The translations under genes and the position numbers were made by a program. DNA of 64,000 nt from Xaviernesmea oryzae (GTDB lineage: Bacteria; Pseudomonadota; Alphaproteobacteria; Rhizobiales; Rhizobiaceae): assembly GCF_900177415.1 (NCBI RefSeq), contig NZ_FXAF01000011.1:62001-126000 (forward strand), read 5' to 3'. The notes under the pieces were generated by a model. That model had not been told where the DNA came from. It made no database searches and saw only the letters and a list, made by a program, of their open reading frames with translations. Of this stretch, positions 29,681 to 52,726 are shown piece after piece (positions within the stretch are counted from its first letter, which is position 1; every line of letters begins with the position of its first letter).

Positions 29681-29824
29681 TTAGCGGAAGGAACGGGCCG
29701 CGATGTTGCGGATGTCGTAGCGGGTCAGACCGATGTCGTTGAGGGCCTGGTTGGAAAGGTTGCCAAGCTCGTTCATCGTGCGGCGGTAGCTGATCCAGTT
29801 CTTAGCGATACGGATCGGGTTCAT
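29681..29824 (-). CDS. Small DUF1127 protein (first copy)
   Basis: A 47-residue arginine-rich protein: MNPIRIAKNWISYRRTMNEL, then the DUF1127 core LNDIGLTRYDIRNIA. DUF1127 (YjiS-like) proteins are common in Rhizobiales, often in pairs or larger sets; in Agrobacterium some have been tied to RNA metabolism and phosphate uptake. The complementary strand shows GAGGAAAC seven or so bases upstream of the ATG. A perfect terminator follows. A second copy lies 248 bases upstream on the same strand. Confidence 0.93.
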   Translation of the reverse strand: MNPIRIAKNWISYRRTMNELGNLSNQALNDIGLTRYDIRNIAARSFR

Positions 29825-30007
29825 GGTTGTTTCCTCAAGAATTGTCCTGATGCTCTGTCGTCATCAGCGATGGCCGTCTTATACAACCGCATAATAAAGA
29901 AGTGCAGTGCAAAAAATATGCGACTGCCATGCAAATGTGCAGGAGGTTGATGAATTTTGTAGCTGAGCCTGAAAAATCGGCAGACTTGAATAGGAAGCTT
30001 TATGCAA

Positions 30008-30072: not shown

Positions 30073-30219
30073 TTAGTAGCCGACGGCCGTGCGGGCGACG
30101 CGGCGGATGTCGGCGCGGCCGATGCCGAGGTCGCTGAGTTCACGGTCGGTCATGCGGCCGAGTTCGCTAACGGTTTCGCGGTACTTGCGCCAGGTGTTGA
30201 GCTTCTGTGCGATGTTCAT
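30073..30219 (-). CDS. Small DUF1127 protein (second copy)
   Basis: A 48-residue DUF1127 protein, MNIAQKLNTWRKYRETVSEL followed by LSDLGIGRADIRRVA. It shares the layout of the first copy (basic N-terminal helix, then the L-x-D-[IL]-G-[IL] turn and an R-rich helix), but the sequence is quite diverged, so the pair is not a recent duplication. It has its own terminator. About 200 bases upstream on the same strand is the terminator of an alpha-r14-type small RNA. Confidence 0.93.
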   Translation of the reverse strand: MNIAQKLNTWRKYRETVSELGRMTDRELSDLGIGRADIRRVARTAVGY

Positions 30220-30421
30220 GATCTTGTCCCTTCAGGTCCTTGCCAGCAGCCCCTGCGGCGCTGACTTCAATCTCATGACCGCGAATATATGCTGCGCTGC
30301 GAAAAGAAAAAGCGCCCTTTCGGTATGCCACCTATGCGTTTGCTGCATTACGAGATTGTTTACTACGCGAGGGGTGGCCAAATGCTAGGCAGATTTGCGG
30401 GCATCGGCAGACGCTCGGATC

Positions 30422-30461
30422 AAAAAATAACGCCCACCGGGGGAGGAGGTCCGGTGGGCGT
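30422..30461 (-). terminator. Terminator hairpin of the alpha-r14 sRNA
   Basis: ACGCCCACCGG (30430-30440) is the exact complement of CCGGTGGGCGT (30451-30461), with a ten-base loop carrying the anti-Shine-Dalgarno motif. The minus-strand product ends in a T-run at 30427-30422. Confidence 0.9.
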
Positions 30462-30546
30462 CATTTGTAATGACCGGCGATTTGGGAGGAGGAGGATCGC
30501 CAGTCCCATCGGGCCTTCGCTGGGAGGAGGAGTGCGCGGCCCGAAT
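30422..30546 (-). ncRNA. Alpha-r14 family small RNA (NfeR1-like) with three anti-Shine-Dalgarno loops
   Basis: On the minus strand three hairpins in a row each expose CCTCCTCCC in the loop. Hairpin 1 has stem GGGCC/GGCCC (30538-30542 with 30511-30515) and its motif at 30522-30530. Hairpin 2 has a 9-bp stem (30496-30504 with 30473-30481, one wobble) and its motif at 30484-30492. Hairpin 3 is an 11-bp terminator stem (30451-30461 with 30430-30440), motif 30441-30449, followed by TATTTTTTG. This matches the published description of the rhizobial alpha-r14 family (S. meliloti NfeR1), trans-acting sRNAs of roughly 120 nt that bind ribosome sites of many mRNAs. The 3' end is set by the T-run; the 5' end is estimated from family length. 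Confidence 0.85.
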
Positions 30547-30864
30547 TCCTGTTCTCGAGAAGCTCCCGAGGGCATTTCATTTCCGTGCGGCTTGCCACCC
30601 CGCCCGAACCGGAGAGGTCGAAAACGGTTCCAATCAATCTCCGTGACTGCATACTATGAAACTGGAGGGTTATTGTGCAGTGCAATATATGAATGGATGG
30701 CATGCGGTCCGCGCATGGCTCCATCGCCCAGCCGAATACAGTCTATGCATTAGTATTTAATAAAACGCTAAGCGGGTCCGGGAGGCCGATGCGCGGTCAA
30801 TCCTGCTGGATAATCGGTATTTCCCGCGGTTTCTGTGAAGTGCCGAAAAAGCGTCATTTTCCCT
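30547..30864. other. Gene-free stretch between the sRNA and tRNA-Leu promoter
   Basis: About 320 bases with stop codons in all frames that matter and no conserved ORF. It must hold the sRNA promoter on the minus strand, but I could not place -35 and -10 boxes with confidence. GTGCAGTGCAA at 30675-30685 recurs exactly at 29902-29912, upstream of the first DUF1127 gene. The right half is AT-richer around 30750. Confidence 0.5.
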
Positions 30865-30945: not shown

Positions 30946-31030
<85 letters not shown>

Positions 31031-45118: not shown

Positions 45119-45142
45119 GCTTTCATCTGGGAGGAGGAGCAG

Positions 45143-45514
45143 ATGCTGACGGGACGTTGCCATTGCGGCGAAACGATTTTCGAGATCGACGGCGAGCTGC
45201 CGCAGGCGCTCACCCGCTGCACCTGTACCTTCTGCTCGAGGCGGGGCACACTTTACGCCTATTACGAGCCGAAGCGGGTGCATGTGAAGGCGGACCCCGC
45301 CAGCGACCGGGTCTACCGCTGGAACTCCAAACTGGTGGCGCATCATTTCTGCGGCACCTGCGGCTGCACGACCTACAGCGACAGCCCGGATTTCCAGCTG
45401 GACGGGACATGGGACGGCAAGACGCGCCGCTTCGGCGTGAATGCAAGGCTGTTCGATGATTTCGATGCCGAGGAATGGCCGCATACGGTCATCGACGGCA
45501 GAAACCTCTGGTAG
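45143..45514 (+). CDS. GFA-family zinc protein
   Basis: A 123-residue protein of the GFA (glutathione-dependent formaldehyde-activating) family. The zinc-binding cysteine pairs are present: Cys6 and Cys8 (RCHCGE), Cys26, Cys28 and Cys31 (TRCTCTFC), and Cys70, Cys73 and Cys75 (HHFCGTCGC). Whether it binds glutathione is uncertain for most family members. It begins 24 bases after the first LysE gene, with GGGAGGAGGAG just upstream, and the second LysE gene starts 10 bases after it. Confidence 0.9.
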   Translation: MLTGRCHCGETIFEIDGELPQALTRCTCTFCSRRGTLYAYYEPKRVHVKADPASDRVYRWNSKLVAHHFCGTCGCTTYSDSPDFQLDGTWDGKTRRFGVNARLFDDFDAEEWPHTVIDGRNLW

Positions 45515-48260: not shown

Positions 48261-49238
48261 TCAGGTCACTTCGTTTTCCTTGCGGGTCGCCCAGAGCGAG
48301 CCGAGAATGCCGGCCGCCAGGATCGAAACCGTGACGCTGAGGGAGATGGACGGCGGGATTTTCGCGATCCCCAGCATGTCGGCCACGAAAATCTTGGAAC
48401 CGACGAAGATCAGCACCGCCGCCAGCGAGTATTTGAGATAGGCGAAGCGGTGCATCAGGGCTGCAAGCGCGAAATAGAGCGCGCGCAGACCGAGGATCGC
48501 GAAGATGTTCGAGGTGTAGACCAGGAACGGGTCCGTGGTGATCGCGAAGATCGCCGGGATGGAGTCGACCGCGAAGACGAGGTCCGCCAGCTCCACCATG
48601 ACGAGCGCCAGGAAGAGCGGCGTCACGAAGGTCTTCAGCCTGCCGGTCTTGTCCTTTTCGCGTACGAAGAAGCTCTCTCCGCGCAGGCCCTGCGTGACAG
48701 GCAGGCGCCTGCGCAGGAATTTCAGCACCGCGTTGTTGCCGATATCCTCCTCGCTGTGGTCGGAGGAGATCAGCATCTTGATGCCGGTGAAGAGCAGGAA
48801 GGCGGCGAAGAGGTAGAGAACCCAGTGGAAGTTCTCCACGATCGCGGCACCGCCGGCGATCATGATACCGCGAAGCACGATCACGCCGAGGATGCCGTAG
48901 AGCAGCACGCGATGCTGGTACTGTCGCGGTATGCCGAAATAGGAGAAGATCATGGCGATGATGAAGATGTTGTCCATCGCCAGGCTTTTCTCAACGACGA
49001 AGCCGGTGAGATATTCGACCGCGGGCTGCTGGCCGGACTGGAACCATATCCAGCCGCCGAAGGCGAGACCTATCGCGATGTAGAAAGCAGACATCCACAT
49101 GCTTTCCCTGACGCCGATTTCCTTCGATTCCTTGTGAAGGACGCCGAGGTCGAGAGCGAGCAATGCGAGGACGAGCGAGAGGAAGAGCGCCCACATCCAT
49201 GCGGGCGTACCGAGAAAATCCAAAAACAGGAAGTCCAT
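48261..49238 (-). CDS. TerC-family membrane protein
   Basis: A 325-residue inner membrane protein of the TerC family (tellurite-resistance-associated, with members now linked to metal export such as manganese). Nine or so hydrophobic helices are visible. Conserved acidic residues in membrane helices include those in VVEKSLAMDNIFII and VELADLVFAVDSIPAIFA, the family's likely metal-binding sites. The ribosome site (AAGG) may be buried in a short hairpin upstream (49243-49264). The gene converges on the HerA-like gene. Confidence 0.9.
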   Translation of the reverse strand: MDFLFLDFLGTPAWMWALFLSLVLALLALDLGVLHKESKEIGVRESMWMSAFYIAIGLAFGGWIWFQSGQQPAVEYLTGFVVEKSLAMDNIFIIAMIFSYFGIPRQYQHRVLLYGILGVIVLRGIMIAGGAAIVENFHWVLYLFAAFLLFTGIKMLISSDHSEEDIGNNAVLKFLRRRLPVTQGLRGESFFVREKDKTGRLKTFVTPLFLALVMVELADLVFAVDSIPAIFAITTDPFLVYTSNIFAILGLRALYFALAALMHRFAYLKYSLAAVLIFVGSKIFVADMLGIAKIPPSISLSVTVSILAAGILGSLWATRKENEVT

Positions 49239-49264: not shown

Positions 49265-49366
49265 GCTTTATAGAGGGTCCGACATCGCGTATGTCCGGAA
49301 TACGCCAGAGGGGCCCGGAACCCAGTCCGCTAGATCGTTGTTCCAGCCGGCCGGTTCAAGAGCCGG

Positions 49367-50239: not shown

Positions 50240-50266
50240 GCCGCCTCACTTCGAGGCGGCTTTTTT
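50240..50266. terminator. Second terminator, overlapping the sthA stop codon
   Basis: GCCGCCTC (50240-50247) pairs with GAGGCGGC (50253-50260), followed by six T on the plus strand. The sthA stop (complement of 50246-50248) lies in the stem and loop, so the last sthA codons form part of the hairpin. Confidence 0.8.
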
Positions 50267-51730
50267 CTCGTCCGCCGTGACGGTCGTGGTCGCGGTGGTG
50301 TCGAGCGGCTGGGCGGTCGCGACCGGGGCTTCCTTCGGCAGCTCGCCCATGCGGTTCCAGGCGTCGAGACCGGCGATCTTGTAGGCTTCGGCAAGCGTGG
50401 GATAGTTGAACGTATTCTCGACGAAATATTCGACCGTGCCCTTGAGGTTGAGGACGGCCTGGCCGATGTGGACGAGTTCGGTCGCCCCTTCGCCGACGAT
50501 ATGCACCCCGAGCAGGCGGCGGGTCTTCAGCGAGAAGATCAGTTTCAGGAGGCCGGTGTCGAGGCCCATGATATGGCCGCGCGAAGTCTCGCGGAAGCGG
50601 GCGATGCCGCATTCGTAGGGAATGCCGCGCTCCTTCATCTCCTCCTCCGTCAGGCCGCAGGTGGAGATTTCCGGCACGGCATAGATGCCGTAGGGGAAAT
50701 ATTTCTGCGGCTCCTTGGCGATTGCGCCCACGGCGACGCGGGCGGCGATGCGGCCCTGTTCCATCGAGGTCGAAGCAAGGCTCGGGAAGCCGACGACATC
50801 GCCGGCGGCGTAGATGCCGGGAACCGAGGTCTCGAAGGTTTCCGGATTGACCTTGAGACGGCCGCGGCTGTCGGCTTCGAGGCCGGCTGCGGCGAGATTC
50901 AGCGTGTCGGTGGCGCCCATGCGGCCGGCGGCGAAGAGCACCATGTCGGTGACGATACGGCGGCCGCTGTCGACCTGAACCGAAACCTTGCCGTCGGGAA
51001 GCCGCTCGACCTTCTCGGCCTTCTGGCCGAGCAGCAGCTTCATGTTCCGGTCGCGCAGCTGATAGGTGAAATCCTCGACGATCTCCTTGTCGATGAAGTC
51101 GAGCATGGTCGGCTTCGGATCGATGACGGTGACCGCGGTGTCGAGCGCCGAGAAGATGGTCGCATATTCGATGCCGATGACGCCGGCGCCGATGACGACC
51201 ATGGAACGGGGAAGTTCCTCGATTTCCAGCAGTTCGTCGCTGTCGACGACCGTCTTGCCGTCGAAGGGCATGTAGTCCGGGCGAAAGGGCTTGGTACCGA
51301 CGGCAAGCAGGATCGATTTGCTCGTGGCGTGCAGGATCTCCCCGTCGTCCTTGGCGATCGCCAGCGTATCGGGCGTGACGAAAGTGGCCTTGCCGCGAAT
51401 GCTTTGAACCCGATTGCGGGCGAACTGGTGCTCGAGCACCTCGACCTCGTGATCGAGGGTGATGATGAGGCGGCGGCGCAGGTCTTCCGCGCTGATCTCT
51501 TGCTTGACGCGATAGGCCCGGCCGTAGAAGCCGCGCTCGCGCCAGCCGGAAAGGTTGAGAGCGGTCTCGCGCAGCGTCTTCGACGGGATCGTGCCGGTAT
51601 GCACGGAGACGCCGCCGACCCTTTTGCCCTGTTCGACGACCAGGACCTTCTTGCCGAGTTTGGCCGCCTGAATGGCTGCCCGGCGACCGGCCGGTCCGCT
51701 GCCGACGACGATGAGGTCGTATTGGTTCAT
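50246..51730 (-). CDS. sthA: Si-specific NAD(P)+ transhydrogenase (soluble)
   Basis: Soluble flavoprotein that moves reducing equivalents between NADPH and NAD+. The 494 residues belong to the pyridine nucleotide-disulfide oxidoreductase class I family. FAD is bound by VVGSGPAGRRAA (about 8-19). The redox cysteine pair of lipoamide-type relatives is absent (VSVHTGTIPSK), as expected for SthA. The NAD(P) motif is VIGAGVIGIEYA, and the dimerisation domain has the expected PEISTCGLTEEE. The C-terminus is extended by a short Ala/Thr/Lys tail. It converges on rpsD. Confidence 0.94.
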   Translation of the reverse strand: MNQYDLIVVGSGPAGRRAAIQAAKLGKKVLVVEQGKRVGGVSVHTGTIPSKTLRETALNLSGWRERGFYGRAYRVKQEISAEDLRRRLIITLDHEVEVLEHQFARNRVQSIRGKATFVTPDTLAIAKDDGEILHATSKSILLAVGTKPFRPDYMPFDGKTVVDSDELLEIEELPRSMVVIGAGVIGIEYATIFSALDTAVTVIDPKPTMLDFIDKEIVEDFTYQLRDRNMKLLLGQKAEKVERLPDGKVSVQVDSGRRIVTDMVLFAAGRMGATDTLNLAAAGLEADSRGRLKVNPETFETSVPGIYAAGDVVGFPSLASTSMEQGRIAARVAVGAIAKEPQKYFPYGIYAVPEISTCGLTEEEMKERGIPYECGIARFRETSRGHIMGLDTGLLKLIFSLKTRRLLGVHIVGEGATELVHIGQAVLNLKGTVEYFVENTFNYPTLAEAYKIAGLDAWNRMGELPKEAPVATAQPLDTTATTTVTADEKKAASK

Positions 51731-51916
51731 GAAATGCTCCGCTTCGAAAATGCCCGCCGCCGCAATGCGGCCGCGCTCTCGCTTCTCTTGTAGCCGCCTA
51801 TTCTAAAGTTTTGATTGCGGTGCATTCAAGCCTCGATTCCGGTCGTTCTGCATAGATTTTGTGCATCGCGGAAATTGCCGAAAAATTGCCTTGACGCAGG
51901 GCCGGAAATGCCATCC

Positions 51917-51940
51917 ATTGGAACCAATTAAAAATTGGTC
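51917..51940. promoter_or_regulatory. Candidate GntR operator upstream of the regulator gene
   Basis: Three alternating half-sites form overlapping palindromes: ATTGG (51917-51921), CCAAT (51924-51928) and ATTGG (51934-51938). Within this, ACCAATT (51923-51929) and AATTGGT (51933-51939) are perfect inverted repeats three bases apart. It ends seven bases before the likely start codon, a place suited to autorepression. Confidence 0.5.
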
Positions 51941-51946
51941 CAGAAA

Positions 51947-52726
51947 ATGGTACAGGGGAAAACAGGCGAGGCTCACGACAACTCGAACTATGCGCTCGAC
52001 CGCCTGAGGGAGCTCCTTGGGGCGGGGGAACTCGGTTCGGAAGGGCGCCTGCCGACGGAACGGGCATTGGCCGAGATGCTCGGGATAAGCCGCCGGGTGG
52101 TGCGCCGCGCATTGGAAGTGCTTGAGGCGGAAGGCCTGATCTGGCGCCGCCAGGGGTCGGGTACGTTTGTCGGCGAACGTCCCGACCGTTTCAGCGAACA
52201 TCTTGGCGATATCGTCGCCGGCACCGATTTCATGGAGCTGATGGAGGTTCGCCTCAGGATCGAGCCGCAGCTCGCCCAGCTTGCCGCCATGCGCGCCAGG
52301 CCGCGTGATGTGGAAAAGATGCGGGAGCTTGCCCGGAAGATCATCGAAAGCAGCGATGCGGACGCCCGCGAACTCTGGGACGGCGCATTGCACCGGCTGA
52401 TCGCCCAGAGCGCCGGCAACCGGCTGTTCCTGTCCATTTTCGACGTGATCAACCGCGTGCGGCAGGACGAGGCATGGCGGGCGGTCCGCGAGCGCGCCCG
52501 CTCGGGGAAGAATGCGTTCGAGGTCTCCTACGCGCAGCACAAGAACATCATCGAGGCGATTGCCGCACGCGATCCGGCGCGTGCCGGCGAGGCGATGCGC
52601 GAACACATGCTGACCCTGCAGGAGCGGCTCATCCGGGCGACCTCCATGGAGCACGATCACACCATTCCAAATGCCGACACCGAGGATGATCCGGAAGGAT
52701 TCCGGGCGCAGAACGCGACCGCGTGA
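51947..52726 (+). CDS. GntR-family transcriptional regulator, FadR (FCD) subgroup
   Basis: A 259-residue regulator. The N-terminal winged helix-turn-helix (about 15-75) carries LPTERALAEMLGISRRVVRRALEVLEAEGLI by position and GSGTFV in the wing. The C-terminal FCD domain (about 95-230) has the metal-binding pattern typical of the family, with Asp in MEVRLRIEPQLA, His in HRLIAQ and His in AQHKNIIEAIAARD. It is first in a run of seven same-strand genes encoding a peptide importer and hydrolases, and is likely their regulator. There is no clear ribosome site before ATG 51947. A palindrome directly upstream suggests autoregulation. Confidence 0.9.
   Translation: MVQGKTGEAHDNSNYALDRLRELLGAGELGSEGRLPTERALAEMLGISRRVVRRALEVLEAEGLIWRRQGSGTFVGERPDRFSEHLGDIVAGTDFMELMEVRLRIEPQLAQLAAMRARPRDVEKMRELARKIIESSDADARELWDGALHRLIAQSAGNRLFLSIFDVINRVRQDEAWRAVRERARSGKNAFEVSYAQHKNIIEAIAARDPARAGEAMREHMLTLQERLIRATSMEHDHTIPNADTEDDPEGFRAQNATA

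Follow-up and report, generated by a model that had tools for sequence, protein, structure and literature searches.

The window, by which we mean the whole 64,000-nucleotide stretch analysed here, carries an ar14 small RNA on its minus strand, followed on the same strand by two DUF1127 genes. The best explanation of this locus, to which we give a probability of about 0.65, is that ar14 would act as a silencing RNA that is repressed by PhaR, the sensor of PHB granules, until PHB accumulates and is co-regulated with the DUF1127 genes next to it. Rhizobia commonly contain both ar14 RNAs and DUF1127 proteins, and each is puzzling; studies of DUF1127 suggest RNA binding for one species and, for another, phosphate sensing. 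If the two have a conserved PhaR-type operator in common, carbon storage would be the input to both.

Family and fold of the ar14 RNA

The body of the RNA, a series of three hairpins, spans positions 30425–30549. In an Rfam search, model RF02344 (ar14) aligned over its full length (model positions 1–123) with 30549–30425 of the minus strand, scoring 108 bits (E = 5.2e-19) against a curated cut-off of 58.8. Our own covariance model, built from 61 sequences including the window copy itself, gave the window ar14 129.8 bits. Membership of the ar14 family is supported far above threshold; the preliminary description had proposed alpha-r14 and named a covariance-model search as a check, and the search upholds the assignment well over the cut-off.

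Each hairpin presents CCUCCUCCC unpaired in its loop: at 30522–30530 in hairpin 1 (30509–30544), at 30484–30492 in hairpin 2 (30472–30505), and at 30441–30449 in hairpin 3 (30425–30466). CCTCCTCCC occurs four times in the window where 0.93 are expected, a count reached by 2 of 100 shuffles, and three of the four fall within ar14, one per loop at these minus-strand positions. The 128-nt minus-strand fold has an energy of −60.8 kcal/mol (z = −5.83), none of 200 shuffles being equally stable, and places the motif in all three loops. Three minus-strand hairpins with a shared loop motif, as originally described from the letters, are thus confirmed by motif positions, fold, and RF02344 match. Hairpin 3 leads into a U-run, GUUAUUUUUU on the minus strand, and we infer that the two together form the terminator of ar14. 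A minus-strand terminator scan did not report hairpin 3 because its 10-base loop exceeds the scan's 3–8 loop limit; what the scan listed was this repeat as read on the plus strand.

The alignment of 61 sequences, comprising five copies from this genome and 56 from relatives, bears the marks of a conserved structure: 95.6% of cells pair, and double-sided changes occur in 25 of 28 pairs. None of 500 shuffles attains any of five covariation measures, and pairings slid by 1–3 columns drop to 32–47%. Across the 61 sequences the nine-letter motif never varies in the first two loops and hardly varies in loop 3, although this invariance is not independent evidence because the sequences were partly picked by the motif. 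The search for ar14 found it in 97 of 101 Rhizobiaceae genomes and in 63 of 199 genomes of the order.

A small protein from the 51-aa frame at 30420–30575 was considered and rejected: when ten sequences were compared by eye, their long frames over ar14 did not resemble one another. Elsewhere in the window, a terC RNA (RF03067, 49 bits, cut-off 39.9) at 49271–49326 on the minus strand lies directly upstream of a membrane-protein-like frame (48261–49238, minus strand) and has the appearance of an ordinary terC cis element.

The tig locus and the identity of the copy

tig and tRNA-Leu (30946–31030, a flanking landmark from the tRNA call) lie on the plus strand, followed on the minus strand by ar14, DUF1127 gene 1 (30073–30219, 48 aa, PF06568 at 54 bits; by synteny, the positional orthologue of SMc02051), and DUF1127 gene 2 (29681–29824, 47 aa, PF06568 at 51.7 bits). 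These are the flanks as claimed before, namely two minus-strand DUF1127 genes and a plus-strand tRNA-Leu. The best relatives of the window's trigger factor, including those of Rhizobium terrae and Neorhizobium huautlense, are 93% identical, which marks the genome as Neorhizobium-like. Through the trigger factor we assembled 80 Rhizobiaceae records (best 80 of 250), with one record almost devoid of upstream flank (L076) still counted. tRNA-Leu and DUF1127 lie upstream of tig in 79 of these best 80 of 250, and the comparison of flanking genes that had been suggested for other Rhizobiaceae thereby finds them conserved. By our own model, 63 of the best 80 of 250 contain ar14, and five of them, S. 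meliloti included, contain two copies; seven weak matches (E 0.0037–0.08) and two partial matches of 104 (one each in L143 and L153) were left out.

The number of ar14 copies at the tig locus varies. Two copies are present in L094, L099, L104, L109, and L111; in L013, from another genome, three ar14 copies precede a pair of DUF1127 genes, with tig outside that stretch; and the tig loci L083, L097, L100, L106, L108, L110, L112, and L119 have none. Eight of ten Agrobacterium records are without ar14, yet retain two DUF1127 genes and the LsrB-type element described below.

The linkage to DUF1127 genes, earlier put forward as worth testing, is real. Among the matches listed, 56 of 70 Rhizobiaceae genomes have a same-strand DUF1127 gene within 1.5 kb of ar14, none has one on the opposite strand only, and 14 have none nearby; the 70 are the genomes with a listed best ar14 match, our own included, at one per genus plus one extra of its own genus. 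At the linked loci of these genomes (matches listed), 39 have DUF1127 ahead of ar14, 14 have ar14 in front, and 3 show both arrangements. An order-wide search yielded 28 further loci (four from Rhizobiaceae), 23 of them with DUF1127, which, judged by eye, always precedes ar14 and shares its strand. The window, where the sRNA leads, thus shows a minority order, DUF1127-first being the common one. The association of DUF1127 with sRNAs is in print as the CIN1 locus (PMC10253847, citing another paper), and the window likewise has DUF1127 and an anti-SD RNA adjacent on one strand. It lacks the CcsR-type arrangement, in which an sRNA downstream of DUF1127 is released from the 3′ UTR of that gene, since ar14 precedes DUF1127.

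The position of ar14 before DUF1127 on one strand, together with the leader attenuation described for a DUF1127 gene of S. meliloti (PMC12218461), could also suit a leader acting in cis to attenuate DUF1127 gene 1, with anti-SD loops that work on the nascent mRNA or by read-through. We consider this most improbable. The mechanism described in S. meliloti uses a translated uORF and has no intrinsic terminator (PMC12218461), whereas a terminator-like hairpin and 205 nt separate ar14 from the DUF1127 domain here, and in the ten sequences compared by eye the long frames over ar14 agree neither in start and frame nor in sequence. DUF1127 gene 1 moreover has LsrB- and PhaR-type elements of its own, and the LsrB-type one is retained in 15 of 16 loci that lack ar14.

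The SMc02051–tig region of S. meliloti holds SmrC14, later named NfeR1 (PMC2780559; PMC7143759), as well as SmelC398, an RNA of 217 nt (PMC2873474) that is sm7′ in PMC2573895. At the locus of S. meliloti 4H41 (L111), which has two ar14 copies, the coordinates published for SmelC397 agree with the proximal copy and those for SmelC398 with the distal one, and the proximal copy bears the TGCA-N6-GCAT LsrB box described for NfeR1 (PMC10746234). The published 5′ end of SmelC398 falls 0–2 nt behind CTATAT of the L111 distal promoter, with a few bases of slack since strain 4H41 is compared with 1021. The window has the distal copy alone, between tig and the SMc02051-type gene and with the TTGCACTGCACAA promoter; a DUF1127-proximal copy of the NfeR1 type, with an LsrB-type element just upstream, is missing. 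Judged by position and promoter, the window ar14 is the orthologue of SmelC398, with NfeR1 (SmelC397) as the DUF1127-proximal copy.

The preliminary description had named NfeR1 as its example, and the locus might simply be NfeR1, the nodulation and salt-stress sRNA that is activated by LsrB and repressed by NtrC: the window RNA belongs to the family of NfeR1 and lies in the SMc02051/tig intergenic region, as does S. meliloti nfeR1 (PMC2780559). This identity did not hold up, and we regard it as very improbable. NfeR1 is the proximal copy and the window retains the distal one only; GCATRGGTG stands before none of 63 distal copies vs four of five proximal, NfeR1-like ones; and the distal promoter has a different conserved box of its own and, in many species, a longer leader. 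For an orthologue of SmelC398 the osmoadaptation and nodulation roles of NfeR1 are therefore not simply transferable, and caution is advised in assigning NfeR1 functions to every ar14 RNA at the tig locus.

The primary transcript of ar14 probably starts near 30648, judging from a −10-like TAGTAT at 30656–30651 and from the 5′ end of SmelC398 in the same promoter frame. This would give a 5′ leader at 30550–30648 and a predicted transcript of ∼224 nt, vs the 217 nt published for SmelC398. A start near 30546, as initially assumed, is unlikely: that position is the end of the conserved body, and both the −10 and a conserved box, TATTGCACTGCACAATA, which starts ∼136 nt upstream of the body, lie farther upstream. 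The output of a generic sigma-70 scan does not include the proposed promoter. An ECF promoter at ∼30632–30603 (GGAAC-N16-GGTT, which we take to be the RpoE2-type consensus) was also considered and rejected; its letters form an inverted repeat within the predicted leader, and the conserved box and −10 are again farther upstream. In S. meliloti northern blots, just one of six ar14 copies is reliably seen (PMC7143759).

LsrB-type and PhaR-type promoter elements

DUF1127 gene 1 is preceded by an LsrB/VtlR-type element, TGCA-N6-GCATAGGTGGCAT (30325–30347, minus strand), recognized by consensus match and conservation. GCATAGGTGGCAT fits the LsrB consensus GCAT-N3-TG-N3-T (PMC8844928), a match that by itself is not above chance, 29 of 100 shuffles holding one with ≤1 mismatch. 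GCATRGGTG is found in 62 of 63 orthologous promoters of DUF1127 gene 1 and in none of 52 of DUF1127 gene 2, and controls contain it rarely (0 of 280 control frames, 5 of 1400 random windows); in a wider family sample it is rare too (9 of 86 DUF1127 genes, 2 of 34 free-standing ar14). The presence of a putative element of this type upstream of DUF1127 gene 1 agrees with the control of DUF1127 genes by VtlR, the Brucella LsrB (PMC12595884). We rejected it as the activator of the window ar14, as it stands before DUF1127 gene 1 instead.

The box of the ar14 promoter, ATATATTGCACTGCACAATAA (30670–30690, minus strand), is an exact match to the PhaR/AniA consensus published for S. meliloti, WNWD2NYGCRNYGCRNH2WNW (PMC12542648), and the genome encodes one PhaR. 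A second exact match is in the promoter of DUF1127 gene 1 (30287–30307, minus strand; core at −82 from the ATG), and DUF1127 gene 2 has the PhaR-type core TGCACTGCA at −87 (29903–29911, minus strand), within a 21-mer that is not an exact match. Of its two putative elements, DUF1127 gene 1 would accordingly have one in common with NfeR1 and the other in common with the RNA of the SmelC398 type. Exact matches in the window number three vs 0.24 expected. The third (51856–51876) lies between a flavoprotein dehydrogenase-like frame (50246–51730, minus strand) and a GntR-like regulator frame (51935–52726, plus strand), both named by eye. Genome-wide, the full consensus is hardly enriched, with 27 sites vs 23 for the reversed control; the match alone therefore carries little weight, and as stand-alone proof it is ruled out. 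The case for PhaR as the predicted regulator rests on the conservation of the box and on its absence in genomes lacking PhaR.

Conservation is marked at the distal copies. The core TYGCRSYGCACAA with ≤1 mismatch is found within 260 nt upstream of 55 of 63 distal ar14, and is missing from the other eight orthologous promoters, vs 50 of 3289 random windows. Its distance to ar14 ranges from 63 to 184 nt, yet in most rows it stands ∼16 nt before a TATA-like −10 (by eye). None of 16 testable ar14-less loci has the exact core, and two have it with one mismatch. The genome under study contains the exact core 12 times vs 2 for the reversed sequence, with two of the 12 just before ar14 copies, and YGCRNYGCR within 140 nt of all five of its ar14 copies (shuffle mean 1.0, largest 4). 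Across the sampled genomes, with a search distance of 220 nt, YGCRNYGCR precedes 64 of 86 DUF1127 genes and 23 of 34 free-standing ar14, but only 5 of 63 ar14 directly behind DUF1127 or another ar14; among controls it is found for 63 of 280 frames and for 303 of 1400 random windows. One of five NfeR1-like copies is preceded by this core, and 50 of 52 orthologous promoters of DUF1127 gene 2 contain a PhaR-type core.

PhaR (PF07879) was found in 88 of 101 Rhizobiaceae genomes. YGCRNYGCR is present in 35 of 40 DUF1127 promoters from genomes with PhaR vs 3 of 16 from genomes without it (p = 1.8e-6), a comparison that, with nine PhaR-lacking genomes, kinship ignored, and lower GC in these, rules out composition and shared descent just in part. 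Resampling leads one to expect the core in 10.4 and 1.7 promoters, respectively: it falls to chance level in the DUF1127 promoters of genomes without PhaR. The 21-mer with ≤1 mismatch is in 25 of 40 vs 0 of 16. GC is 0.32–0.58 in the PhaR-lacking promoters, mostly <0.5 and lower than in most of the others; among distinct promoters of <50% GC from genomes with PhaR, 19 of 23 contain the core (25 of 29 before overlapping promoters were merged), although the GC of most PhaR-lacking promoters is below even that of these. The two sets were chosen unequally. The first comprises the best-ranked DUF1127 gene, among the matches listed, of the first 39 genomes with PhaR, plus that of G079, which is not next in rank and replaced G086, whose match sits at a contig end; the second comprises all 16 listed DUF1127 matches of the nine genomes.

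Exceptions run both ways. G031, a draft of ∼140 contigs in which PhaR was not found, retains the core and supplies two of the three PhaR-lacking cases that have it. Among 69 other genomes, the core is missing at the sampled locus in nine, three without PhaR and six with it (G018, G028, G079, G081, G088, and G097); four of these six have it at another DUF1127 gene. Outside the Rhizobiaceae, 16 of 31 DUF1127 promoters contain the core, a count without control. Both ar14 and DUF1127 persist in genomes in which PhaR was not found (G006, G016, G026, G031, G056, G072, G078, G091, and G096); PhaR would therefore be an input to the ar14/DUF1127 module and not its condition, and the module would have a role without PhaR. 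The broader proposition, that throughout the Rhizobiaceae PhaR directly controls free-standing ar14 and DUF1127 genes and that the operators decay where PhaR is lost, we hold at about even odds.

With the ar14 identity right, the conserved box might still be part of the core promoter or the site of a regulator other than PhaR, a reading that we consider unlikely. The box lies on the −35 region with near-fixed spacing to the −10 in most rows (by eye), palindromes like it are common, and the PhaR consensus is loose. A core promoter element, however, should not fall to chance in genomes without PhaR in which DUF1127 genes persist, and PhaR binds similar S. meliloti sites by EMSA (PMC12542648). 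We continue to prefer PhaR as the putative occupant of the box.

Proposed circuit and known systems

Under PhaR control, RNA polymerase would start at ∼30648, with the putative PhaR (AniA) operator covering the −35 region. In the absence of PHB, PhaR would repress ar14; as PHB granules form, PhaR would be drawn off and the ∼224-nt RNA would be made, ending at hairpin 3. The three CCUCCUCCC loops would then pair with strong Shine-Dalgarno sequences and leave those mRNAs untranslated, redundantly, as with NfeR1, which is transcribed, independent of Hfq, and silences mRNAs in trans with three redundant loops (PMC10746234). Both DUF1127 genes, having the same kind of box, would respond together with ar14, DUF1127 gene 1 possessing the putative LsrB/VtlR element in addition, and ar14 and the small DUF1127 proteins would constitute one carbon-storage-responsive module. 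Published work has PhaR leaving the DNA as PHB accumulates, and the SMc02051 protein is increased in a phaR mutant (PMC12542648). If PhaR indeed controls both partners throughout the Rhizobiaceae, translation and the uptake of nutrients would be under a brake that depends on carbon storage.

Leaders perfectly complementary to the loops (GGGAGGAGG-N3-10-ATG) occur at 19 places vs 3 for the reversed sequence; one of the 19 lies inside an ar14 copy in antisense orientation, two coincide, and several open no long frame. Ten frames were scanned, which encode two GFA proteins, a periplasmic binding protein, an ABC ATPase, a TPP enzyme, an FAD-binding protein, a DLH hydrolase, a cytochrome c, an RTX/cadherin-repeat protein, and an IclR regulator. 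No clear transporter theme emerges among these ten, and the genes behind such leaders are weak candidates for ar14 targets. One such leader lies in the window (45129–45145, plus strand), before a GFA-domain gene, and marks a possible target.

Titles and abstract openings among the matches listed contain no combination of ar14 or NfeR1 with PhaR, most subscription papers lying beyond this search, and in the literature searched we met no description of what signals govern the ar14 copies apart from NfeR1. In that literature DUF1127 and PhaR occur together in one paper, on taxonomy (PMC9230146), and the name SmelC398 likewise in one. SMc02051 is listed as uncharacterised in PMC12542648, with no mention of DUF1127 or an sRNA. 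As to RNA metabolism, raised earlier in connection with the DUF1127 link, RNA binding has been found for CcaF1, with no evidence of it for YjiS (PMC12501420).

The RNA and its DUF1127 link are of known kinds; control by a PhaR-type box looks new. SmelC398/sm7′ resembles the window ar14 in its position between tig/tRNA-Leu and an SMc02051-type DUF1127 gene, in strand, in the TTGCACTGCACAA box, and in its comparable length, but S. meliloti has NfeR1 (SmelC397) between SmelC398 and DUF1127 and the window does not. NfeR1/SmrC14/SmelC397 shares the RNA family and the three CCUCCUCCC loops; unlike the window ar14, it is proximal, 123–124 nt long, and has an LsrB site and an RpoD promoter just upstream. 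In the CIN1 locus of Rhodobacter sphaeroides (CcaF1 with CcsR1–4), a DUF1127 gene is likewise associated with same-strand sRNAs of the CcsR/cuckoo type (PMC10253847), although in that locus the gene leads, behind an RpoHI/HII promoter, and its 3′ UTR is the source from which the sRNAs are cut, whereas in the window the sRNA comes first and would have its own promoter. MmgR of S. meliloti is a different sRNA for which PhaR binding is shown, while for ar14 it is predicted; like the window ar14, it is a trans-sRNA with a PhaR/AniA operator, and it is repressed by PhaR (PMC12542648).
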